A DNA stretch of 64,000 bases. It comes from Halalkaliarchaeum sp. AArc-CO. Its GTDB lineage: Archaea > Halobacteriota > Halobacteria > Halobacteriales > Haloferacaceae. Of this stretch, positions 19,896-30,325 are shown piece by piece. The stretch lies in the NCBI RefSeq assembly GCF_024972735.1, contig NZ_CP087723.1, positions 1,736,001-1,800,000 of the forward strand, given 5' to 3'. Each line of letters opens with the position of its first letter. Position 1 is the stretch's first letter. The notes beneath the pieces were generated by a model. The model saw nothing but the letters and a program-made list of their open reading frames with translations. It ran no database searches and was not told the origin of the DNA. The translations under genes were made by a program, and so were the position numbers.

Positions 19896-20198
19896 GGACC
19901 GACTACCGGCGTGATTGCGTTCGAACAAATTATCACCGACAATCGATGGTGAAAGTAGGAACGTCAAACCGGTTGGTAGGTCCGCCGATCCGGACGGTAG
20001 GACCGCCCATCCGGGCGGTAGGGACGTCGATCCGGTGCGTCTAAGCACTCCGTAGACGGGTCTATTCGGCCGTTAGACGATTCTGGGCGATTATTAGCCG
20101 GTGGCGTGGGTGCTCGTAACTATCCCCATAGGGGGGACAGTATCAGTCGTACCGGCACAGGGCCATCACGGGTGGCGATGTACCGGGGAGAAAAACCA
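19896..20198. promoter_or_regulatory. Divergent control region of the TasA-like operon
   Basis: These 303 bases hold no convincing gene. From left to right there is an AT-rich stretch for the leftward promoter (near 19926-19934, CAAATTATC), three 21-base repeats (19975-20037), a TATTA box at about 20092-20096 for the rightward promoter, and a short CCCC-ATA-GGGG hairpin at about 20127-20137 before the first ATG. Confidence 0.5.
19975..20037. repeat. Three 21-base tandem repeats (possible operator iterons)
   Basis: Units begin at 19975, 19996 and 20017, each starting GGTAGG and carrying the core ATCCGG (CCGCCGATCCGGAC, CCGCCCATCCGGGC, CGTCGATCCGGTG). The 21-base period equals two helical turns, which suits a protein binding one face of DNA. 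It also keeps the leftward frame open, so coding repeats cannot be fully excluded. Confidence 0.75.
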
Positions 20199-21740
20199 AT
20201 GACGGACAAAGAATTCGGACTCTCGCGCCGCAAAGTGCTCGCCGGCCTCGGCATGGTCGGGGTCGCGAGCGCGGGCGCGGGCCTGGGAACGACTGCGTAC
20301 TTCAGCGACGAGGAGAGCTTCGAGGGGAACACGCTCACTGCTGGCGAGTTCGACCTCAAGATGGACTACCGGATGACGTACCGTGGCGGTCACGGCCGTC
20401 TCGAGGAGCTCCAGCAGAACTACCCGAACGCGACGTTCGTGGACGAGGACATGGAGCCGACCGACGAGGACACCGGCGTGTATCTCCTCGATCAGGTCCC
20501 TGGCCTGGACAACTACCCGGGTGCGGGGGACTGGGTCCGCGGCGCGAACGGCATCTTCGACCCCGAAACCGGAGAGGGCGAGGGCTTCCAACGAGATGAG
20601 CTCATCGACGCGGATGATCTCGAGGAGGCACTCATTCGAATCGGCGACGTCAAGCCCGGCGACTACGGTGAAGTCACCTTCAGCACCCACCTGTACGACA
20701 ACCCCGGATACATGTGGATCGGTGGGGCGTTGACCGGCAACCACCAGAACGGTTACACTGGTCCTGAGATCGAGGCGCTCGAAGAGATGGGGATCCCCAC
20801 GGACGACCCGGACGGAGAGGGCCAGCTCGCGGACGCCATCGAGGCGAAGATCTGGTACGACGACAACTGTGACAATATCCACCAGGAGAGAGGTGAAGAG
20901 GAAGGAGAGGGCGTCGACGTGATGCTCGTCATCGACACCTCTGGTTCGATGAGTGGTAGCCGGATCGTAAACGCGAGAAACGCGGCCAGTCAGTTCATCC
21001 AGAATCTCGGCGCCGACGACCGCGTCGGGCTCGCAACGTTCGACACCAACTCCCGTCTCGACGAGGAGTTGACCTTCGACCACGGTGACGTCGATACCAC
21101 AGTCCAGGGACTCGGAGTAGGCGGCTGGACACAGATGGACGGCGGCGTCGACGTCGCCAAGCAGGAATTAGACGACAAGGATCGCGGTGTCGACCGAGTG
21201 ATCATCCTGCTGGGGGACGGCGAACCGAACCGCTCGTCGCGAGGGCAGGATAGCGATGCTGTACAGAACGCGATCGCAGCCGCCCAGGACGCCAAAGACG
21301 ATGGAATCACCGTCATCACCATCGGGTTGGCAGTCAGCGGGACTGCACAGAACACGCTCATCCAGATGGCAAGCGGCAGCAACGGCACCACGCTCTACTA
21401 CGACTCACCGACGGGTGATGATCTGGACGAGATCTACGCACAGATCGCTGCGGTCGTACTCACCGGCGAGGCCGTGATCGTCGAGGGCACACTTCGGGAA
21501 GTGATGAAGGCACTTGAAGGAGGCATTCCACTGGACGCCAACCTCCAAGAGGAAGATCGCGTCTGCTTCACTAACTCCGTGACCCGCTGTTTCGGCTTCG
21601 AGTGGGAACTGCCCACCGACGTCGGAAACGAGGTCCAGACGGACTCCGTCGAGTTCGCGATCGGCTTTGCCGCCGAACAGTGCCGCCACAACGACGGCGA
21701 AACCAACCCATTCGCTCCCGAAGTGAACGGCTCCGCATAG
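20199..21740 (+). CDS. TasA/camelysin-like exported protein with inserted von Willebrand A domain
   Basis: 513 residues. The signal combines a twin-arginine pair (LSRRKVLAGLG, Arg10/Arg11) with a SipW-type cleavage region TTAYFSDEESFEGNTLTAGE. The TasA-like beta-sandwich begins there, including DVKPGDYGEVTFSTHLYDN. A vWA domain is inserted at about 240-425: MIDAS DTSGSMSGS, a Thr loop GGWTQMDGG and LLGDGEPNRSS. The TasA fold then resumes (GTLREVMKALEGGIPLDA, then AEQCRHNDGETNPF). It is first of an operon ending with SipW. It probably forms or decorates a surface fibre or cell-contact structure; this role is inference from TasA. The start ATG 20199 is chosen because it matches the paralogues. 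Confidence 0.88.
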   Translation: MTDKEFGLSRRKVLAGLGMVGVASAGAGLGTTAYFSDEESFEGNTLTAGEFDLKMDYRMTYRGGHGRLEELQQNYPNATFVDEDMEPTDEDTGVYLLDQVPGLDNYPGAGDWVRGANGIFDPETGEGEGFQRDELIDADDLEEALIRIGDVKPGDYGEVTFSTHLYDNPGYMWIGGALTGNHQNGYTGPEIEALEEMGIPTDDPDGEGQLADAIEAKIWYDDNCDNIHQERGEEEGEGVDVMLVIDTSGSMSGSRIVNARNAASQFIQNLGADDRVGLATFDTNSRLDEELTFDHGDVDTTVQGLGVGGWTQMDGGVDVAKQELDDKDRGVDRVIILLGDGEPNRSSRGQDSDAVQNAIAAAQDAKDDGITVITIGLAVSGTAQNTLIQMASGSNGTTLYYDSPTGDDLDEIYAQIAAVVLTGEAVIVEGTLREVMKALEGGIPLDANLQEEDRVCFTNSVTRCFGFEWELPTDVGNEVQTDSVEFAIGFAAEQCRHNDGETNPFAPEVNGSA

Positions 21741-21752
21741 ATAACTGACCAC

Positions 21753-21843
21753 GAGCGGCCACGCCGCTCTCCCCACTCGAGCCCTCAAAAGGGTGGCCGA
21801 CGAGGCGGTTCGACGCCGCCGGTGGGAGTTCCCCGTACGGGGA
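21753..21843 (+). promoter_or_regulatory. Structured spacer element 1 with tRNA T-arm mimic
   Basis: A 91-base element fills the spacer. Hairpin P1 is GAGCGGC-CAC-GCCGCTC at 21753-21769. A CCCCACT strand (21771-21777) can pair with GGTGGGA (21821-21827). P2 is GCCCT/AGGGT around CAAA (21781-21794). P3 is GGCGG-TTCGACG-CCGCC at 21804-21820, close to a T-arm (5-bp stem, 7-base loop). P4 is TCCCC-GTAC-GGGGA at 21830-21843, eight bases before the next ATG. Confidence 0.7.
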
Positions 21844-21851
21844 TGATACAA

Positions 21852-23150
21852 ATGCAAGACGACAACATCGGTCTGTCTCGACGGAAAGTACTGGTCGGTC
21901 TCGGAGCCGTCGGCGTCGCCTCGGCAGGCGCGGGGCTCGGCACCACGGCGTATTTCAGCGACGAGGAGAGCTTCCTCGGCAACACCCTCACCGCAGGTGA
22001 ACTCACCCTGTACGTCAACTACCACGCGTACGCGGATCAGGGCGAATACCTCGGCGAGTACCTGATGGAAGGTATCGCAGGCGAGGGCGAAAGCGAGGTC
22101 GAACACAGCTTCGAACTCGACGACGTCAAGCCCGGCGACAGCGGCCGCAAGAAGTTCTGCTTCTCGGTGGTCGACAACCCGGCGTACCTGTGGGGATGTG
22201 GGATGCTCACCGGCGAAGTGGCGGGAACCGGCGGTGGCCAGCTCGCGGACTACCTCACTGCAACTCTTCGCTACTGTCCGGTGGAAGACAGTGAACCAAA
22301 CGGTGCCCCAGGCGAAGTTGTCGACGGTGACGTTATCGTCGACGGTTCGTTCCGGGATGTGCTTTCGGCGCTCCGGAACGGCGTTCCCCTCGATGCAAAC
22401 GGCGACGGCGAGGTGCCAATCGAAGACCGTGCCTGCTTCGACGGCTCCGAGAGTCTCGAGGATTTCCAGGAAACGTGCCTCTGTCTGGACTGGGAATTCC
22501 CAATCCGGTCCCGGGATCCCGATGCAGAGTTGGACAACAACGACGCCCAGGCGGCCTCGATGGAATTCGACCTCACGTTCTACGCGGAACAGTGCCGCCA
22601 CAACGACGGCCTGACGAACCCCTGCGTTACGACCCGCGAAGGCGAAGGCTGGGGCAAGGCCGAAGGAGAACTCGAAAACCCCAGCTGGCACGCCCGCGGT
22701 ATCTTCGGTGACGGCGGTGGCGCCGCGAACCGCGAACTCGACATTCGAGATCCCGGCGACGACCCGATCCACACCGGCGACGAGAACTACGCGTGGCCCA
22801 ACGGCGAGGCAGTTCCGTTCTCGCTCACTATCGACGGCGGCGACGCGAAGTGGACCGTCGGTGGTAACGAAGTCATGGTCGAGGACGCACCGCTCCCAGT
22901 CGCGGATGGCGTCGGTGTGACGGTCAAGACGCGCGATGCGGACGCAAGCATCACAGTCGAGGACGTCACGCTGAACGGGTCGAGCCCGACCGGCGCCGAT
23001 TCCGTCTCCGCGTCGGGCAGCTCGGCGACGAACTACCTGATGCTCGAAGGCGCGACGCTCCAGGAGGGCGACGTCGTCTCCGGCTTGGTGACCATGTCCT
23101 GGAACGCCACACCGGGTCGAGAGGACATCGGGTTCCGCATCGACGTCTGA
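21852..23150 (+). CDS. TasA/camelysin-like exported protein with extra C-terminal domain
   Basis: 432 residues. The signal is LSRRKVLVGLG (twin Arg) with TTAYFSDEESFLGNTLTAGE. A TasA-like sandwich runs to about residue 262 (ELDDVKPGDSGRKKFCFSVV, DGSFRDVLSALRNGVPLDA, AEQCRHNDGLTNPC) without a vWA domain. A second domain of about 165 residues follows (WHARGIFGDGGGAANREL, then VGVTVKTRDADASITVEDV), beta-rich and ending RIDV. Its layout resembles the haloarchaeal choice-of-anchor repeats, but I am not certain of the family. The start at 21852 rather than 21843 is supported by the position of the P4 hairpin, which uses the first base of the upstream ATG. Confidence 0.87.
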   Translation: MQDDNIGLSRRKVLVGLGAVGVASAGAGLGTTAYFSDEESFLGNTLTAGELTLYVNYHAYADQGEYLGEYLMEGIAGEGESEVEHSFELDDVKPGDSGRKKFCFSVVDNPAYLWGCGMLTGEVAGTGGGQLADYLTATLRYCPVEDSEPNGAPGEVVDGDVIVDGSFRDVLSALRNGVPLDANGDGEVPIEDRACFDGSESLEDFQETCLCLDWEFPIRSRDPDAELDNNDAQAASMEFDLTFYAEQCRHNDGLTNPCVTTREGEGWGKAEGELENPSWHARGIFGDGGGAANRELDIRDPGDDPIHTGDENYAWPNGEAVPFSLTIDGGDAKWTVGGNEVMVEDAPLPVADGVGVTVKTRDADASITVEDVTLNGSSPTGADSVSASGSSATNYLMLEGATLQEGDVVSGLVTMSWNATPGREDIGFRIDV

Positions 23151-23163
23151 GAAGACAACCGAC

Positions 23164-23254
23164 GAGCGGCGACCCCGCTCATCCCATTCGGACCCCTTCG
23201 GGGGTGGCCGACGAGGCGGTTCGACTCCGCCGGTGGGACTTCCCCGGATGGGGA
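23164..23254 (+). promoter_or_regulatory. Structured spacer element 2 with tRNA T-arm and acceptor-like stem
   Basis: A 91-base element that aligns without gaps to element 1. P1 is GAGCGG/CCGCTC (23164-23180). TCCCATT (23182-23188) pairs over all seven positions with GGTGGGA (23232-23238), with two G-U pairs. P2 is ACCCC-TTCG-GGGGT (23192-23205). P3 is GGCGG-TTCGACT-CCGCC (23215-23231), and the loop matches the tRNA TTCRANY consensus. P4 is TCCCC-GGAT-GGGGA (23241-23254), seven bases before the ATG. Confidence 0.75.
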
Positions 23255-23261
23255 GACAATC

Positions 23262-25073
23262 ATGACGCAAGACAACCAATCATTCGGACTCTCGCGCCGC
23301 AAAGTGCTCGCCGGCCTCGGCATGGTCGGTGTCGCAAGCGCTGGCGCGGGGCTCGGGACGACAGCCTACTTCAGCGACGAGGAGTCGTTCGACGGGAACA
23401 CGCTCACTGCGGGAGAGCTGGATCTCCTGATGGATTACCGGATCACCTACAACGGTGGGCCCGGTCGTCTCGAGGAGCTCCAGACACTGTACGACGATGA
23501 TCCGAACTACAATCCAGATGTCAAGGTGAAGGAATACCCTGAGGGGTCCGGAAATTACGTGCTCGATCAGGTGCCGCGTCGCCCGGACTACCCTGGCCCG
23601 GAGGGCTGGGTCGAGGCAGCCAACGTGGGTGTTGGCGAAAACGGCAACATCACTGGCTTCGAGCGCGAGGAACTGACCGACGCCGGCTTCCCGCTGTTCA
23701 AACTCGAAGACGTAAAGCCAGGCGACTACGGCGAAGCCACGATCAGCTTCCACCTCTTCGACAACCCGGCGTACATGTGGATGGGCGGCGGCCTCCGCCG
23801 CAACGCCAACAACGGCGTCAACGAACCAGAACAGGCGACGCTCGACGATCTCGGATACGAAGAAACCACTAGCGACGACCCCGAAGACTTCGCCTCGTGG
23901 GCAGAGGACGATGCCCGTTATTACAACGTCGACGGCGACTGGGGTGGCCAGCTCGCCGACGCGATCGAGGCACGGGTCTGGTACGACGACAACTGTAACA
24001 ACATCTTCGACGAAGGCGGGGATGGAGAGCCAGTCGACATCTCGCTCGTCATCGACGTCTCCGGTTCGATGACCTACGAGATCGGCAATCCGGACAACGT
24101 CATCGGCCAGGGTGACGGATCTCGAATCGCCGAGGCGAGAAAGGCGGCGATCGCGCTCGCAAATAACCTTCGCGAGGACGTCGGTGGAACCGGTCTCGAC
24201 GACCGGCTTGGCGTCGTGACGTTCGGCGGTATCGACGAAGAGGAGTTCGGGCTCACAGACGCGTCCGACGTCAATACTCTCGTAGACGCCCTGGAAGACC
24301 TGGAATCGTATGAAGTCGGTCAGGACGATCCGCCGGACGCGCCGTTCGGTATCTCCGGCACGAACATCGGCGCCGGGCTGTACGGCGGACGGTACATGCT
24401 CGATACCCAGGGGACAGCCGACAGACGTCCCGTGATAATCGTTCTCGGCGACGGCGCACCAACGTGGTCTTACGAATCTGAACAGGTTGACGGCAGCCCC
24501 GAAAGTGGATTCCCGAGTTACAGCGAGTGGCAAGGATGGGATCGTGATGACAAGCTGGATGCGATGGCCGACGTGAACGACACCGTTGCTGCAAATGACA
24601 CGATCGCAGTAGCCGACGAAATCAAAAATCAAACCGACTACCTCATCATCACGATTGGATTCGGACTCGAGGAGGTTCCGGGAACCGGTCTCGCACGGAC
24701 GACACTCGTCGAGATCGCCTCACCCGGCGACGGGGACGACGGCAACAAGCTGTTCTTCGAATCGCCAGCAGATGTCGATCTCGTCGCAATCTTCGCCCAG
24801 ATCGCCCAGGTGGTGTTCGGCGAGAAGGTAATCGCGGAAGGATCGCTTCGGGAGGTCATGGCCACACTGGAGGAGGGCTACGCGCTCGATGCCAACCAGT
24901 TCACGGAGGGACAGGACTGCTTCCCGCCGTTGCTCACCCGCTGTGTCGGCTTCGAGTGGTGGCTCCCGACCGACGTCGGCAACGAGGTCCAGACGGACTC
25001 CGTGGAGTTCGACATCTCGTTCTTCGCGGAACAGTGCCGCCACAACGACGACCCGCAGAATCCGTACGCCTGA
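23262..25073 (+). CDS. TasA/camelysin-like exported protein with inserted von Willebrand A domain (paralogue)
   Basis: 603 residues. The signal has LSRRKVLAGLG and TTAYFSDEESFDGNTLTAGE. The TasA-like part includes EDVKPGDYGEATISFHLFDN. The vWA insertion spans about 258-520 and is longer than in the first gene: MIDAS DVSGSMTYEIG, a Thr loop SGTNIGAGL and VLGDGAPTWS, with an extra ~60-residue segment after the third motif. The TasA fold resumes with EGSLREVMATLEEGYALDA and ends AEQCRHNDDPQNPYA. DNA around the signal peptide is nearly identical to the paralogues, suggesting recent duplication or gene conversion. Metal-dependent ligand binding is expected from the intact MIDAS. Confidence 0.88.
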   Translation: MTQDNQSFGLSRRKVLAGLGMVGVASAGAGLGTTAYFSDEESFDGNTLTAGELDLLMDYRITYNGGPGRLEELQTLYDDDPNYNPDVKVKEYPEGSGNYVLDQVPRRPDYPGPEGWVEAANVGVGENGNITGFEREELTDAGFPLFKLEDVKPGDYGEATISFHLFDNPAYMWMGGGLRRNANNGVNEPEQATLDDLGYEETTSDDPEDFASWAEDDARYYNVDGDWGGQLADAIEARVWYDDNCNNIFDEGGDGEPVDISLVIDVSGSMTYEIGNPDNVIGQGDGSRIAEARKAAIALANNLREDVGGTGLDDRLGVVTFGGIDEEEFGLTDASDVNTLVDALEDLESYEVGQDDPPDAPFGISGTNIGAGLYGGRYMLDTQGTADRRPVIIVLGDGAPTWSYESEQVDGSPESGFPSYSEWQGWDRDDKLDAMADVNDTVAANDTIAVADEIKNQTDYLIITIGFGLEEVPGTGLARTTLVEIASPGDGDDGNKLFFESPADVDLVAIFAQIAQVVFGEKVIAEGSLREVMATLEEGYALDANQFTEGQDCFPPLLTRCVGFEWWLPTDVGNEVQTDSVEFDISFFAEQCRHNDDPQNPYA

Positions 25074-25377
25074 TCGCCCATTTCAAGTAAAATTTGGAAG
25101 GCAGGCACCCCATACCGCTCCAGAACGCCCGGAACGGGCGTCTGGCGTCCTCGAAAACGAAGCGAGACGAGCGCGGTAGCAACACCCTGACGGCGAGGCG
25201 CGTAACGGTACGCGACTCATACATATCCCCTTAAAAGGGGTATCTACAGGCGACAACCCACGTCGGCACCGAGCCCTTCCTCTCGAAGGTCTCGAACCGC
25301 GGCACTGCCGCGGGACGGCGGTTCGACTCCGCCGGTGGGAATCCCCCGGGAGGAACCCTCCACGAGGGAAGCACATC
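25074..25377 (+). promoter_or_regulatory. Long structured spacer element 3
   Basis: No gene is supported in these 304 bases. A strong hairpin ACGCCCG-GAA-CGGGCGT (25125-25141, extended by CCAG/CTGG) follows the stop by about 50 bases, then CCCCT-TAAA-AGGGG (25227-25240). The T-arm block follows: CCCAC (25257-25261) able to pair with GTGGG, P2 CCGCGGC-ACT-GCCGCGG (25297-25313), P3 GGCGG-TTCGACT-CCGCC (25317-25333), GGTGGGA, and P4 CCCTC-CAC-GAGGG (25356-25368) ten bases before the ATG. A second promoter inside the spacer is possible. Confidence 0.65.
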
Positions 25378-26775
25378 ATGACAACCGAATCGAACAACTA
25401 CGAAACGAACGCGATGGGGATCTCCCGCCGCAAAGTGCTCGCCGGCCTCGGCATGGTCGGGGTTGCCTCCGCGGGCGCCGGCTTCGGGACGACGGCGTAC
25501 TTCAGCGACGAGGAGACCTTCGAGGGAAACACCCTCACCGCCGGGCAGCTCGAACTGAGCGTCACCTGGCAGCAGCTCTACTACGGTGGTCCGCAGTCGA
25601 GCCGGTCACAAGATTACGGCACGGCGATGCGGCCGTTCGTCAACGCGTACCCGGATCACGACGGCGACGGGCTCCAGTCGTTCGAGCGGGACGACGGCGT
25701 CCACGAATACGTCGACCTCGACGGCTACGAGGATCACGAACAGGCAGCAAAAGAGGGGCGGAACCTCGAGTTCGCCTGCGAGGAGATCGCGACCTTCGAC
25801 GAGCCGTCGTTCGCTCCGAACGAGGAGAGCCTCATCGAACTCGACGACGTCAAGCCGGGTGACTGCGGTGAGATCACCTTCGGTACCAAACTGTGTGACA
25901 ACCCGGGCTACATCTGGCTCCACGGCGTGTTGACCGACGAGTCGGACGGCGGACACGCGGAAAGTGGCGGTGCCGAACTCGCCGACAAGATCGTCGCCCG
26001 CGCGTGGTACGACGACGGCGACAACGTGTTCCAGGAAGATGAACCTCAGATCGCCGCAGGCTCGCTCCGTGAAGTGCTCGAGGAACTGAACGAGGGGCTT
26101 CTACTCCAGTACGACCCAGTCGTCATCGGGGAGTCAGAGGAGGAAATCGAACCTGGCGACCTCGAGGGAGACTGTATTGCACTTCCGAAAGAAGACGACG
26201 ACGTCATCGCAAACCTCGCGGAGGGTGACGAATTCACCTACGATGTCGACGGAGAAACCATCGTCATCACCATCGAAGAGGTGTTTTACAAGGACGACGA
26301 GCCGACCGGCTTCTCGTGGTCCAGTAACGTCCCGATCTGTCAGGTGACACTGAAGGGCGGGCCCGACGGGATCGCACCCGGCGAAGGTCTCCCGACGGTC
26401 TACCCGTGTGCCTACGAGGGTACAGTCAACACGGAGATCAACCCGAACAACAACCAGCCGTACGGGATCAGCAACTTCCGGTTCTTCTACTGTGACGTAG
26501 ACAACGGGAACGGCGACATCCCGGTCGAGGAGAACGGTGGGCTCTGCTTCCAGCCGTCGAACACCCGGTTCATCGGCTTCGAGTGGTGCCTCCCGACTAA
26601 TGTCGGCAACGAGGTGCAGGGCGATTCGGTGTCGTTCGATCTGTCGTTCTACACCGAACAGTGCCGCCACAACCCTGACCCCGTGAACCCGTTCGCGGAA
26701 GAAAACGGCAACGACGACGAAAACGGCGACAACGGCAACGAAAGAGACGGTGATATCGACGGCGATCAGTCGTAG
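25378..26775 (+). CDS. TasA/camelysin-like exported protein with Asn/Asp-rich tail
   Basis: 465 residues. The signal is ISRRKVLAGLG with TTAYFSDEETFEGNTLTAGQ. The TasA-like fold shows DDVKPGDCGEITFGTKLCDN and AGSLREVLEELNEGLLL. In place of a vWA domain it carries an insertion at about 245-370 (TIVITIEEVFYKDDEPTGF, then ICQVTLKGGPDGIAP) with several Cys. The fold ends TEQCRHNPDPVNPFAEEN and runs into a low-complexity tail of Asn, Asp, Glu and Gly (about 30 residues). There are more Cys than in its paralogues. It is likely another subunit of the same surface structure. Confidence 0.86.
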   Translation: MTTESNNYETNAMGISRRKVLAGLGMVGVASAGAGFGTTAYFSDEETFEGNTLTAGQLELSVTWQQLYYGGPQSSRSQDYGTAMRPFVNAYPDHDGDGLQSFERDDGVHEYVDLDGYEDHEQAAKEGRNLEFACEEIATFDEPSFAPNEESLIELDDVKPGDCGEITFGTKLCDNPGYIWLHGVLTDESDGGHAESGGAELADKIVARAWYDDGDNVFQEDEPQIAAGSLREVLEELNEGLLLQYDPVVIGESEEEIEPGDLEGDCIALPKEDDDVIANLAEGDEFTYDVDGETIVITIEEVFYKDDEPTGFSWSSNVPICQVTLKGGPDGIAPGEGLPTVYPCAYEGTVNTEINPNNNQPYGISNFRFFYCDVDNGNGDIPVEENGGLCFQPSNTRFIGFEWCLPTNVGNEVQGDSVSFDLSFYTEQCRHNPDPVNPFAEENGNDDENGDNGNERDGDIDGDQS

Positions 26776-26787
26776 CTAAAAAACCAA

Positions 26788-26854
26788 TCCACGCCGGCGC
26801 TTCGCGACGGTTCGACTCCGTCGGTGGACCTGTGCTCGCGGACTCCGTCCGCGA
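26788..26854 (+). promoter_or_regulatory. Structured spacer element 4 with compensatory T-arm change
   Basis: TCCAC (26788-26792) pairs with GTGGA (26824-26828). A small CGC-TTC-GCG hairpin (26798-26806) follows. The T-arm block is GACGG-TTCGACT-CCGTC (26806-26822): relative to the other copies one base on each side of the stem is changed, keeping all five pairs, and the loop is identical. A hairpin TCGCGGAC-TCC-GTCCGCGA (26836-26854) takes the P4 place, but the next ATG is about 120 bases further on. Confidence 0.7.
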
Positions 26855-26976
26855 CGCGTGACCGGTGTCACGCGCGCGAGCGGTACGCGACTCACAGTAC
26901 CCCCGTTCGAGAGACGGGGAGAAGCGACCGACTGCTCCGGTCCGATCGGGCCGAAAACGTTGGGGGATCACACCAC

Positions 26977-27837
26977 ATGACGAATCAATCGAAAACCGAA
27001 CTGAAACGCCGAACGCTCCTCGCGGGTATCGGCGGACTCGGCGTCGCCGGCATCGGCTACGGCCAGTTCCGCACCGTAAACCGCCAGCGTGCGTATACAC
27101 ACTACACGTACGCCCAGCCGGACGGCACAGCCCGGGAGAACGGACGCGGACCGATCGCCATCAGCGACGCCGAGGGACCCCGGATCCGGGTGTCCTGGTA
27201 CAGCACGTACAACGGCCACCTTCTCACCGGCACCCCGACCACGACGACCAATTCCGAGGAGACGTGGGATTACGACACCGAGGACGGCTACGTCGCCGAC
27301 GTCGACGGCCCGGTCATCCACGTCGACAACGTGCTTCCGGGCGACACCGGCACGGCGAGTATCGGTCTCCTGGCGGAGGAGGCCGACGCACGGGTCTGGC
27401 TCCGGATTTCGGCCACGTGTGACGCAAACGACGGTGGGGACGGCTGTCCCCCGCTCGCGGAAAACCCTCTGGCGAACGCCATCGAAACCGAACTGTGGTA
27501 CGACACCGGAATTTTCGGACTGTTCGGCTGCCAGGGGGCCGAGGAGGGCTCTTTCGGCGAGCCGATCGCCGAGGGCGTCCTGGCCGAGATGCCAACCGCG
27601 AACGGCGTCGACGGGTCCGTTTCGGAGGGTCTCGAACTGAACCCGGGTGTGTTGAACAACAGTGTCCTCGAGGAGGGCGACCGACTCTGTCTGGCGCTGG
27701 CGTGGGCGTTCCCGACCAACCTGGAGAACGCCAACGATCTCCAGGGAGCCGCGGTCGCGTTCGACGTGGAGTTCCGGGCGGTCGCCGCGGATGATCCGAA
27801 CAATCCGTTCGCGGTCGAAACCGAGGTGCAGGCATGA
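26977..27837 (+). CDS. TasA/camelysin-like exported protein (divergent)
   Basis: 286 residues. The signal KRRTLLAGIGGLGVAGIGYG has a twin-arginine-like pair but lacks the AYFSD cleavage sequence of the other paralogues. The mature part keeps DNVLPGDTGTASIGLLAEEA, a form of the PGDxG core, and ends AVAADDPNNPFAVETEV. Between these lies a variable region with three Cys. It overlaps the next gene by four bases (ATGA). It is probably a minor component of the same surface assembly. Confidence 0.8.
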   Translation: MTNQSKTELKRRTLLAGIGGLGVAGIGYGQFRTVNRQRAYTHYTYAQPDGTARENGRGPIAISDAEGPRIRVSWYSTYNGHLLTGTPTTTTNSEETWDYDTEDGYVADVDGPVIHVDNVLPGDTGTASIGLLAEEADARVWLRISATCDANDGGDGCPPLAENPLANAIETELWYDTGIFGLFGCQGAEEGSFGEPIAEGVLAEMPTANGVDGSVSEGLELNPGVLNNSVLEEGDRLCLALAWAFPTNLENANDLQGAAVAFDVEFRAVAADDPNNPFAVETEVQA

Positions 27838-29249
27838 CAGACGAACGTCGCTCGGAGGCCGAACGCCTCGCCGGGCTGAGTCGGCGACAGATCCTCGCCA
27901 GCGTCGGGGCGATCGGCATCGCCGGGGCGTTCACGGGCGCGGGAACCCACGCGTTGCTCACCGGCGAGCAGCGCGTCTCGGGACGGCTCGAAACCGGTGG
28001 CGTCGGCATCGGCGTCGAACTCGACTGTGACGGGAATCACTGTTCGGTCTCCCCGGACGGGAGGCTCGCCTTCGGATTCGACGGAATCGAACCCGGAGAC
28101 ACCGGTTCGGTGTCCATCGAACTGCGGGCCGAAGACAACCCCGCCAGGCTCTGGCTCGCGACCGACTGCCCGCCGTCGTACGATCCCCTCGGGGAGTCGC
28201 TCCGGGTGTGGATACAGCCGCGAAACTGGAACGGCGTCCCACAGATCCCCGAGCGGGGGACGTGGACCCTCTCCCAGCTAAAGCGGGAACTCCACGACGG
28301 GCTCCGGATCGGCGAGGGGTGTCTCGATCCGTCGGATCGCAGGGCAATCGAGCTCGTCCTCCGGTGGTCGTTCCCGTACGAGGACACGGAATCGCTTGCC
28401 GGCGAGACGACGGACCTGATGTTCCAGCTGCACGCCGATCAGTGCCGGCACGTGCCCGAGGAGTCGGCGCAAAATCCCTTCGCCGACCGCGCGCCGTGTC
28501 CGAACGCGTGTGAACCCTGCACGAGCAGGCTCTCGGAACTCACGATGGAATACGTCGGCACGGCGTCGGCCCAGGTAGCGGTGTACGTCCCGAGTGGGAA
28601 CGTGGAGGCGGTCGAGCAGCTGTACCCGACGGACGGTTCAGAATCAATCGGGCTGTCGCCTAGCACGCAGTTCACCGTTCCGCTCCCCACGTCCGGCCAG
28701 CCAGAAGCCGCGTTCTACGTCGACGGCGAGAAGAACGCCCAGCTCCACACGAGCTGTTCGGACCCGGTCGCCCCCGGAATCAGGGTCGGCGACTTCCGCC
28801 TTGTCGGCGCGAGAAACGCAGACGGCGTCCAGCTGTGTCACGACCTCGAATGTGTCGACTGTACCGACAGCAGCGACGTCGGCGGCCTGCTGGTCCAGTA
28901 CACCGGCGAGGAGGCCGACGTGCGGGCGTACTACCGGAAACAGGGTAGGCAAGGTCCAAACAGCGGACTTCAGGGACTGCTGTTCGAGGGACGGCTCTCC
29001 GAGGGGGACAAGTTCTTCCTCGAGGCCAGCGGCCGGGACGGAAGCTCGTCCAGCGGATCCACGTTCGAAAACACGCTGTACCTCCACGTCGACGACGACG
29101 AGCGGGAAGTGGAGATCCGGTGTGATCCCGGCCCGCTGTCGGTCGTCGATTCCGGGGATTCCGGCGATCTCGAGGACGACGCCAGCGACTTCGGACTCTT
29201 GGCCGCACACGATCCGTTCGGCTTCCCGTTCTGTGGAGGTGGGGCATGA
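27834..29249 (+). CDS. TasA-like exported protein with two C-terminal repeat domains
   Basis: 471 residues. The N-terminal signal LSRRQILASVGAIGIAGAF (Tat-like) is followed by a TasA-like domain to about 215 (IEPGDTGSVSIELRAEDNPA, then ADQCRHVPEESAQNPFADR). Two homologous beta domains of about 100 residues follow (LTMEYVGTASAQVAVYV with LHTSCSDPV; LLVQYTGEEADVRAYY with YLHVDDDEREVEIRC), preceded by CPNACEPC and CHDLECVDC. This domain type also occurs in bacterial surface proteins. It is coupled by ATGA overlaps to both neighbours, and the next gene is SipW. Confidence 0.82.
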   Translation: MTDERRSEAERLAGLSRRQILASVGAIGIAGAFTGAGTHALLTGEQRVSGRLETGGVGIGVELDCDGNHCSVSPDGRLAFGFDGIEPGDTGSVSIELRAEDNPARLWLATDCPPSYDPLGESLRVWIQPRNWNGVPQIPERGTWTLSQLKRELHDGLRIGEGCLDPSDRRAIELVLRWSFPYEDTESLAGETTDLMFQLHADQCRHVPEESAQNPFADRAPCPNACEPCTSRLSELTMEYVGTASAQVAVYVPSGNVEAVEQLYPTDGSESIGLSPSTQFTVPLPTSGQPEAAFYVDGEKNAQLHTSCSDPVAPGIRVGDFRLVGARNADGVQLCHDLECVDCTDSSDVGGLLVQYTGEEADVRAYYRKQGRQGPNSGLQGLLFEGRLSEGDKFFLEASGRDGSSSSGSTFENTLYLHVDDDEREVEIRCDPGPLSVVDSGDSGDLEDDASDFGLLAAHDPFGFPFCGGGA

Positions 29250-30325
29250 ACGTGACCGCTCGGCGGGTCGCAAGCATCCTCGGGGTGCTCCTGTTGATCG
29301 CTGTCGTAGCGCCGTTCGTCGTGTACGCGGTTCCCCAGACCGTCGGTGCCGACCACAGCTTCGTGGTGTTGACCGCGAGCATGACACCGGCGATCGCGCC
29401 CGGCGACGCGGTGATCGTGGCTGAACGCGATCCGGCCACGATCCAGGAGGGTGACGTGATCACCTTCCTGCGCGGGAACACCGAGGTTCCGGTGACCCAC
29501 CGGGTCGTCGGGGTAATAAATTCCGGAGACGGCATCGCCTTCGAGACGAAAGGCGACGCCAACGACGCCGTCGACGCCGGAGTCGTTTCCGCCGAGAACG
29601 TCCTGGGCGTCGTCGCCGTGACGATCCCGTACATCGGGTACGTCATCCAGTTTGCCAACTCCGAATACGGCTTCGTCGCCCTGATCGTCGTCCCGTTTGG
29701 TCTGCTCGCGTTAAACGAAGCCTGGACGTTCTACCGCCGGAGCAAGGCGTCGAATCCCCCCGACCTCGATGCGGACGACGAGAGCGTGCCGGACTCGGCG
29801 TCATCTCACGCCGCGGAGGGCACCGACGGTGCTGGGGTGGATTCCGAAAGCGAAACGGAGGGAATTGGGACGACGAACACGCAATCGGCGAACACGCAAA
29901 TGGCGGAGGCGGATACGGCCGCGAACGCCCCGTTCGTCATGACGCTTCGGACGTTCGAAGGGGCATTCCTCGCGCTGGCGGTGTTTACACCGTACAGCGC
30001 CTACGTCGCCTACAATTTGCAGACGACGCTATCGGTTACTGTCGCGATCGCCTCGGGAATGACGCTCCTGGCGGTCACGGCGACGCTGCTTCCCGTCTGG
30101 ATTCGCCGTGACGCGCGGGGGACGTCCGAATCTGTAGACGTGACCGCGAACTCGGATCTCGGTGACGAGGAATCGCCGGATTCGGACATCGCAATCGGGT
30201 TCGACGGTGGCACAACTGTGAGGGACGACGAGCCGGAATCCGAGTGGGTTCCGGCGATGGAATCGGCGGTCCCCGCCGCGGACGGATCCGCGGTTGACGG
30301 GGAGGTGAAAGACGATGACAACTAG
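29246..30325 (+). CDS. sipW: SipW-type signal peptidase I with extended C-terminus
   Basis: 359 residues. An N-terminal membrane anchor (about 8-30) is followed by the ER/archaeal-type Ser-His catalytic domain: Ser45 in TASMTPAI, His85 in VPVTHRVVGV, and Asp in KGDANDAVD. Another membrane helix (about 128-160) follows. Unlike short archaeal peptidases, it then has an acidic Ser/Thr/Glu-rich linker, two more membrane helices (about 235-255 and 260-282) and an acidic tail. It should release the TasA-like precursors encoded upstream. It overlaps the preceding gene by four bases. Confidence 0.92.
   Translation: MNVTARRVASILGVLLLIAVVAPFVVYAVPQTVGADHSFVVLTASMTPAIAPGDAVIVAERDPATIQEGDVITFLRGNTEVPVTHRVVGVINSGDGIAFETKGDANDAVDAGVVSAENVLGVVAVTIPYIGYVIQFANSEYGFVALIVVPFGLLALNEAWTFYRRSKASNPPDLDADDESVPDSASSHAAEGTDGAGVDSESETEGIGTTNTQSANTQMAEADTAANAPFVMTLRTFEGAFLALAVFTPYSAYVAYNLQTTLSVTVAIASGMTLLAVTATLLPVWIRRDARGTSESVDVTANSDLGDEESPDSDIAIGFDGGTTVRDDEPESEWVPAMESAVPAADGSAVDGEVKDDDN

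Follow-up and report, generated by a model that had tools for sequence, protein, structure and literature searches.

Candidate mRNA-borne t-elements in the spacers of a haloarchaeal surface-protein operon

The 64,000-nucleotide (nt) stretch of the Halalkaliarchaeum sp. AArc-CO genome analysed here (NZ_CP087723.1, positions 1,736,001 to 1,800,000; "the window") carries a surface-protein operon in which each of the four spacers holds a small fold resembling transfer RNA (tRNA). The fold shows covariation, lies at gene junctions and is related to the t-element that precedes the 5S ribosomal RNA (rRNA) of haloarchaea. From their sequences I therefore read the spacer elements as t-elements borne on messenger RNA (mRNA), kin of the 5S t-element, with a tRNA-like fold but no cloverleaf. 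Intercistronic processing, in which the operon mRNA would be cut at each t-element, is the probable function, and we put its likelihood at about three in four.

The four elements and their fold

All four spacers in the region 21753-26854 contain a T-arm of 5 base pairs (bp) with the T-loop TTCGACT or TTCGACG. An earlier note on this DNA had placed these arms at 21804, 23215 and 25317, with the stem GGCGG/CCGCC, and at 26806, with the variant GACGG/CCGTC, and all are present in the window sequence. With up to 3 mismatches allowed, the pattern GNCGGTTCGACNCCGNCGGTGG matches the window at exactly 4 places, where chance predicts 0.26, and none of 100 shuffles reached 4. Directly 3' of the T-arm stands G-GTGGG (elements 1-3) or G-GTGGA (element 4), and the partner strand lies upstream as CCCAC in elements 1 and 3, CCCAT in element 2 and TCCAC in element 4; an acceptor-like pairing of the CCCAC..GTGGG type (TCCAC..GTGGA in element 4) is common to all four. 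The features are listed below with their scores from R1, a covariance model built from 16 short-linker spacer elements and no rRNA sequence, whose seed leaves out the CCCACTCGGAG rows that were misplaced in the first alignment, A1.

21772..21826, + strand: t-element 1 (spacer 1); acceptor CCCAC 21772-21776 / GTGGG 21822-21826, T-arm 21804-21820, T-loop TTCGACG
Within t-element 1, + strand: inserted arm TCG..CGA with GCCCT/AGGGT, from sequence and subclass arm; R1 match 21.5 bits
21831..21842, + strand: leader stem-loop 1, CCCC-GTAC-GGGG, directly after element 1 and 9 nt before the ATG at 21852
23183..23237, + strand: t-element 2 (spacer 2); acceptor CCCAT 23183-23187 / GTGGG 23233-23237, T-arm 23215-23231; R1 match 30.1 bits
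Within t-element 2, + strand: inserted arm TCGG..CCGA with ACCCC/GGGGT, from sequence and subclass arm
23242..23253, + strand: leader stem-loop 2, CCCC-GGAT-GGGG, before the ATG at 23262
25257..25339, + strand: t-element 3 (spacer 3); acceptor CCCAC 25257-25261 / GTGGG 25335-25339, GG 25265-25266, T-arm 25317-25333
About 25270-25294 and 25297-25313, + strand: two hairpins inserted in t-element 3, from sequence and fold; R1 match 33.5 bits
26788..26828, + strand: t-element 4 (spacer 4); acceptor TCCAC 26788-26792 / GTGGA 26824-26828, GG 26796-26797
26806-26822, + strand: T-arm of t-element 4, GACGG-TTCGACT-CCGTC; pattern match, R1 61.6 bits, a row of the seed alignment

Other structural details of the earlier note were borne out as well. 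Spacers 1 and 2 are each exactly 111 nt long and align without gaps, the strands TCCCATT and GGTGGGA of element 2 form a 7-bp helix, including two G-U pairs, that is stacked on the T-arm, and in the first three spacers a hairpin ends 8-9 nt upstream of the ATG. Its remark that the further stems P2 and P4 differ between elements 1 and 2 yet still pair also stands, in that complementarity is kept across different subclass sequences, with modest support from shuffles of single sequences (3-57 of 200). The subclass in question comprises long-insert copies, elements 1 and 2 among them, with an extra arm whose outer part is TCGG/CCGA, TCGA/TCGA or CCGG/CCGG and whose inner part is CCCC/GGGG, GCCC/GGGC or TTCC/GGAA, with a conserved GG on the 3' side; the arms were located by script, the MAFFT alignment of the subclass (A5) not being structural. 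Since R1 was built from copies without an insert, it pairs the wrong 5' strand in elements 1-3. In element 1 the T-loop ends in G, and the R1 score is as low as 21.5 bits, with an expectation value (E) of 0.2 in its own genome; the element is accepted because it resembles element 2.

None of the elements is a tRNA gene by the searches made: ARAGORN found none in the window, there was no Rfam tRNA match at 21700-27000 even at a permissive E, and Rfam 15 at its gathering score gave no match anywhere in the window.

Distribution, placement and covariation

A first pattern, in which the linker and the outer T-stem were left free, matched in 88 of 294 Halobacteria genomes, representing 32 of 79 genera, while the reversed pattern used as a control matched in no genome. 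The D-loop-like GG follows the 5' acceptor strand (CCAC) by 2-4 nt in 90 of 113 copies; linker length in the pattern-found copies ranges from 3 to 32 nt, and many of their cores are near-identical. With a stricter pattern, 89 stretches were obtained from 85k species genomes, nearly all of them haloarchaeal by title; 6 others came from lactobacilli or pediococci, and a single contig with the label Planctomycetaceae held 2. R1 at E 1e-3 gave a match in 109 of 195 Halobacteria genomes, a count that includes 5S t-elements. At E 1e-4, 16 of 148 genomes drawn across the phylum had a match, and among these sampled genomes there was none outside the class Halobacteria.

No Haloferax was found among the named genomes of the 85k-genome search, although H. 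volcanii has TIGR04088 proteins. This absence may explain why mRNA t-elements were not met in studies of that species. An estimate by regex of the share of SipW-type genes with an element (30 of 43 in stretches selected because they contain one; 83 of 3000 random pieces) was biased, missed the window's own genes and was not used.

Placement was analysed in 85 named haloarchaeal copies, for which the gene calls are heuristic. The elements are found between genes, on the sense strand; the median distance is 33 nt to the preceding stop codon and 25 nt to the next start, although the start is far off in several copies and 149 nt away for element 4. By regex, the downstream gene is of the SipW/TasA type in 53 cases, of the GAFTSV type in 12 and "other" in 18, and on inspection several of these 18 proved to be of the same kinds; DUF1102, another camelysin family, is matched by several of the GAFTSV-type and similar proteins.

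Both helices show compensatory change. The cleaner test uses the three outer pairs of the T-stem, on which the pattern places no constraint. Here pairing holds in 333 of 339 cells, where the best of 2000 shuffles reached 303. Among 147 model-aligned mRNA elements, a set that leans towards R1, 98.8% of cells are paired and 8 of 10 base pairs have changes on both sides; the covariation score is 0.243 as compared to 0.114 in shuffled alignments, 0 of 500 shuffles reach the observed value, and controls with slid alignments score at most 0.068 with 36-60% paired. The acceptor occurs as CCCAC/GTGGG, CCCGC/GCGGG and CCTGT/GCAGG. Furthermore, the bases flanking its 5 bp pair more often than in shuffles (54 vs 41.7 and 52 vs 35.6 of 85), which indicates that the helix is often 6-7 bp long. 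The 5S t-element set also covaries by itself. Lack of covariation and absence from orthologous operons had been named in the earlier note as grounds for abandoning an RNA element, and on both counts the element held.

The same data bear on two explanations that need no RNA function. Integrases often use tRNA T-arms, and the earlier note had offered a DNA recombination site as an alternative; the T-arm, the several copies per operon and the related matches in some prophages would suit an integrase attachment site or a recombination repeat. Copies of an attachment site should share an identical core of DNA, and these copies instead vary in a compensatory manner, with an acceptor partner strand that lies outside any short core site. 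All are at sense-strand gene junctions, the 5S copies lie within rRNA operons, and the presence of several copies in one operon can also be held against a DNA site, to which we give next to no weight. It is likewise highly improbable that the elements are a functionless copied repeat family or relics of tRNA genes; many near-identical cores might suggest this, but both helices covary, dozens of genera have the same placement, no full tRNA was found at the elements and the acceptor stems differ between copies.

Kinship to the 5S t-element and proposed processing

In this genome the sequence upstream of 5S rRNA reads CCGATC-CA-GG-..-GACGG-TTCGAGT-CCGTC-GATCGG, and R1 finds both 5S t-elements of the genome, at 24.4 and 23.1 bits, with only five of the six mRNA elements and a near-match in coding sequence scoring higher. 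The latter, at C2:1496241 (27.9 bits), lies inside an open frame, has a degenerate T-loop and was taken as a chance match. About two dozen of 40 further loci hold 5S t-elements (24.8-53.1 bits), and in each of these the R1 match runs right up to the first base of the Rfam 5S match without including it; at five of the loci the 5S rRNA genes are in tandem, and every copy is preceded by its own t-element. The mRNA-type matches among the 40 loci mostly precede SipW-type or other signal-bearing genes.

The t-element of haloarchaeal 5S rRNA, known from Haloferax volcanii among others (Holzle et al. 2008, 2012), is described in PMC4326828. In Haloferax, tRNase Z processing at this element makes the 5' end of 5S rRNA, and t-elements are substrates of ribonuclease P (RNase P) and tRNase Z that remain functional when moved to other RNAs (PMC4326828, PMC4946936). 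The spacer elements share with it an acceptor-like helix, a GG-bearing loop without D-stem or anticodon arm, and a T-arm with the same loop. They differ in lying between protein genes, often with inserted arms and with a leader stem-loop downstream, whereas the 5S t-element precedes rRNA and has the acceptor CCGAC/GTCGG or CCGAT/ATCGG rather than CCCAC/GTGGG. Because a model made without rRNA finds a documented RNase P/tRNase Z substrate before 5S, the spacer elements are best regarded as t-elements; the traits of haloarchaeal t-elements, namely an acceptor-like helix continuous with the T-arm, a TTCRANY T-loop, a GG that would face that loop and kinship to the 5S element, are found in them, the GG in most copies.

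The cut sites can be predicted on the model of the haloarchaeal 5S t-element. The t-elements would be transcribed within the polycistronic mRNA and adopt a minimal tRNA-like fold comprising an acceptor-like helix of 5 bp (up to 7), a D-loop-like GG loop, the T-arm and sometimes an extra arm. tRNase Z would then cut 1-3 nt past the 3' acceptor strand, between GGTGGGNN and the T that follows, and RNase P on the 5' side, just before CCCAC or no more than two bases away from it. An intrinsic terminator would have a G+C hairpin with a run of T behind it; judged by eye in the window and the fetched copies, only 0-3 T follow the 3' acceptor strand. The expected products are single-gene messages, in which the upstream mRNA would end soon after its own stop codon and the downstream mRNA would have a leader of 20-40 nt with a stem-loop at its new 5' end. 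Such cutting would probably serve to set stability and translation separately for each surface-fibre subunit. The RNA processing proposed in the earlier note is in this way well supported for RNase P and tRNase Z, through homology to the 5S t-element, but not for splicing endonuclease: the fold common to the copies includes no bulge-helix-bulge, with its two 3-nt bulges around a 4-bp helix, although no scan aimed at that motif was made.

With leaders counted from where tRNase Z is predicted to cut up to the ATG, 55 of 59 have a stem-loop within 3 nt of the cut, and it holds a G-rich, Shine-Dalgarno-like sequence. Alternatively, the fold may stay uncut and mimic tRNA so as to be bound by the ribosome or by a protein that recognises tRNA and, with the leader stem-loop, tune translation of each subunit, a role that the earlier note had also offered. 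The short median distance to the start codon, with the Shine-Dalgarno-like stem-loop in between, would fit this, and mimicry of the tRNA elbow could draw other tRNA-binding factors. We nevertheless consider it unlikely, since the closest relative, the t-element of 5S rRNA, serves in processing and has the same end position to the nucleotide, and several copies, such as element 4, are far from the start. It is less likely still, and in our view quite improbable, that the excised t-element is itself the product, a small stable RNA for which the operon is a carrier: the fold is compact, its loop is strongly conserved and the same two enzymes would remove the flanks, but a conserved leader hairpin and strict confinement to the spacers of a single operon type indicate that the mRNAs are the products, and the variable linker and frequent inserts speak against a small RNA.

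Several points weigh against intercistronic processing. The acceptor core, 5 bp and an unpaired G, is shorter than the 7 bp of tRNA, and many copies contain inserted arms. Holzle et al. 2012 (Biochimie) reportedly predicted more tRNA-like elements in H. volcanii, and those tested are said to have remained uncut in vitro; these are probably other elements, since no Haloferax is among the named matches. Finally, when processing sites were studied in H. salinarum and H. volcanii, no motif common to the internal sites was found (PMC8303175).

Cleavage of the kind proposed would resemble the tRNA punctuation of mitochondrial polycistronic transcripts, in which cuts by RNase P and RNase Z free the individual mRNAs. 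In both, a tRNA fold between coding genes marks the actual or proposed cuts, but mitochondrial punctuation consists of real tRNA genes, whereas the haloarchaeal spacers hold minimal elements unable to act as tRNAs. RNase P does cut bacterial polycistronic mRNAs, including that of the his operon (Alifano 1994; Li and Altman 2003; cited in PMC11143913), and its action within operon mRNAs is what these cases share with our proposal. Their cut sites are not known to be copies of a single conserved T-arm element that recurs from one junction to the next. Engineered t-elements release CRISPR RNAs in Haloferax (PMC4326828, PMC4946936), and so can work beside other RNAs; those constructs are artificial, while the spacer elements are natural and in mRNAs. 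In the open-licence literature no report of mRNA-borne t-elements was found, which does not prove novelty. How unequal amounts of protein are made from one archaeal operon mRNA is poorly known. A conserved, recognisable element, present in dozens of genera and placing the predicted cuts to within a few bases, makes the question testable by existing 5'-end sequencing; should cutting be demonstrated, the role of archaeal RNase P and tRNase Z would widen from tRNA and 5S rRNA to mRNA.

Operon context, viruses and bacteria

The operon encodes SipW-dependent, TasA/camelysin-like and VWA proteins together with a SipW-like signal peptidase:

20196..21740, + strand: gene 1, SipW-dependent VWA-domain surface protein; Pfam VWA, NCBIfam TIGR04088
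21852..23150, + strand: gene 2, SipW-dependent, choice-of-anchor W domain; NCBIfam NF041928, TIGR04088
23262..25073, + strand: gene 3, SipW-dependent VWA-domain protein; Pfam/NCBIfam matches
25378..26775, + strand: gene 4, SipW-dependent camelysin/TasA-like; TIGR04088 over cut-off, Pfam Peptidase_M73 just below cut-off
26977..27837, + strand: gene 5, exported, RR-type signal, after the long leader 3' of element 4; open reading frame with no family match
29246..30325, + strand: SipW-like/archaeal signal peptidase I; NCBIfam TIGR02228, Pfam Peptidase_S26

An element is present in all four real spacers of the operon, and there is none before the first gene or where genes overlap; the signal peptidase gene, which overlaps the gene before it, has no spacer and no element. 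In the whole genome TIGR04088 is matched by only the four operon genes. Two further elements, at C2:2540047 and C2:2540746, are in spacers of a second operon (C2:2540047-2540790). Upstream of the surface-protein operon, degenerate repeats of the form ATCCGG..CGGTAGG occupy window positions 19975-20040, in the 5' part of a divergent DUF7344 gene.

Viral matches were obtained in prophages of Lactobacillus and Pediococcus and in haloviruses. Mycobacterium phage Indlulamithi (NC_048824.1, 34128-36562) has t-element-like folds in spacers at 897-988, 1175-1274, 1569-1661 and 1902-1991 of this segment, with several R1 matches in the phage; these are consecutive spacers of 90-100 nt, each containing acceptor, AACGG, T-arm, stem-loop and GAGAGG ahead of the start, and the four have four different acceptor sequences. 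This phage and the haloviruses HSTV-2 and HRTV-7 were reached through phage BLAST with 45-nt queries, which returns mostly tRNA T-arms. The layout compared was stop, acceptor-GG-T-arm, stem-loop, ribosome site and start. It is possible, although we put this forward only tentatively, that t-elements are a general punctuation of protein operons, in haloarchaeal surface fibres and, with the same layout, in archaeal and bacterial tailed viruses; the phage examples suggest that such punctuation is widely used. Rfam 15 gave no match at the elements of 14 viral and bacterial loci.

T-element-like folds were also seen at gene junctions near 1165-1230 in the HSTV-2 locus and near 1193-1236 in that of HRTV-7, the former inside the 3' part of annotated coding sequence 68. 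Thirteen Lactobacillus/Pediococcus phage or prophage loci have copies, most of them 6-14 nt after a stop codon, and the neighbouring genes include superinfection-exclusion and MazE-like families. An IMG/VR contig of 20.9 kb, found also as a contig of a Planctomycetaceae metagenome-assembled genome, carries four near-identical t-elements before small genes.

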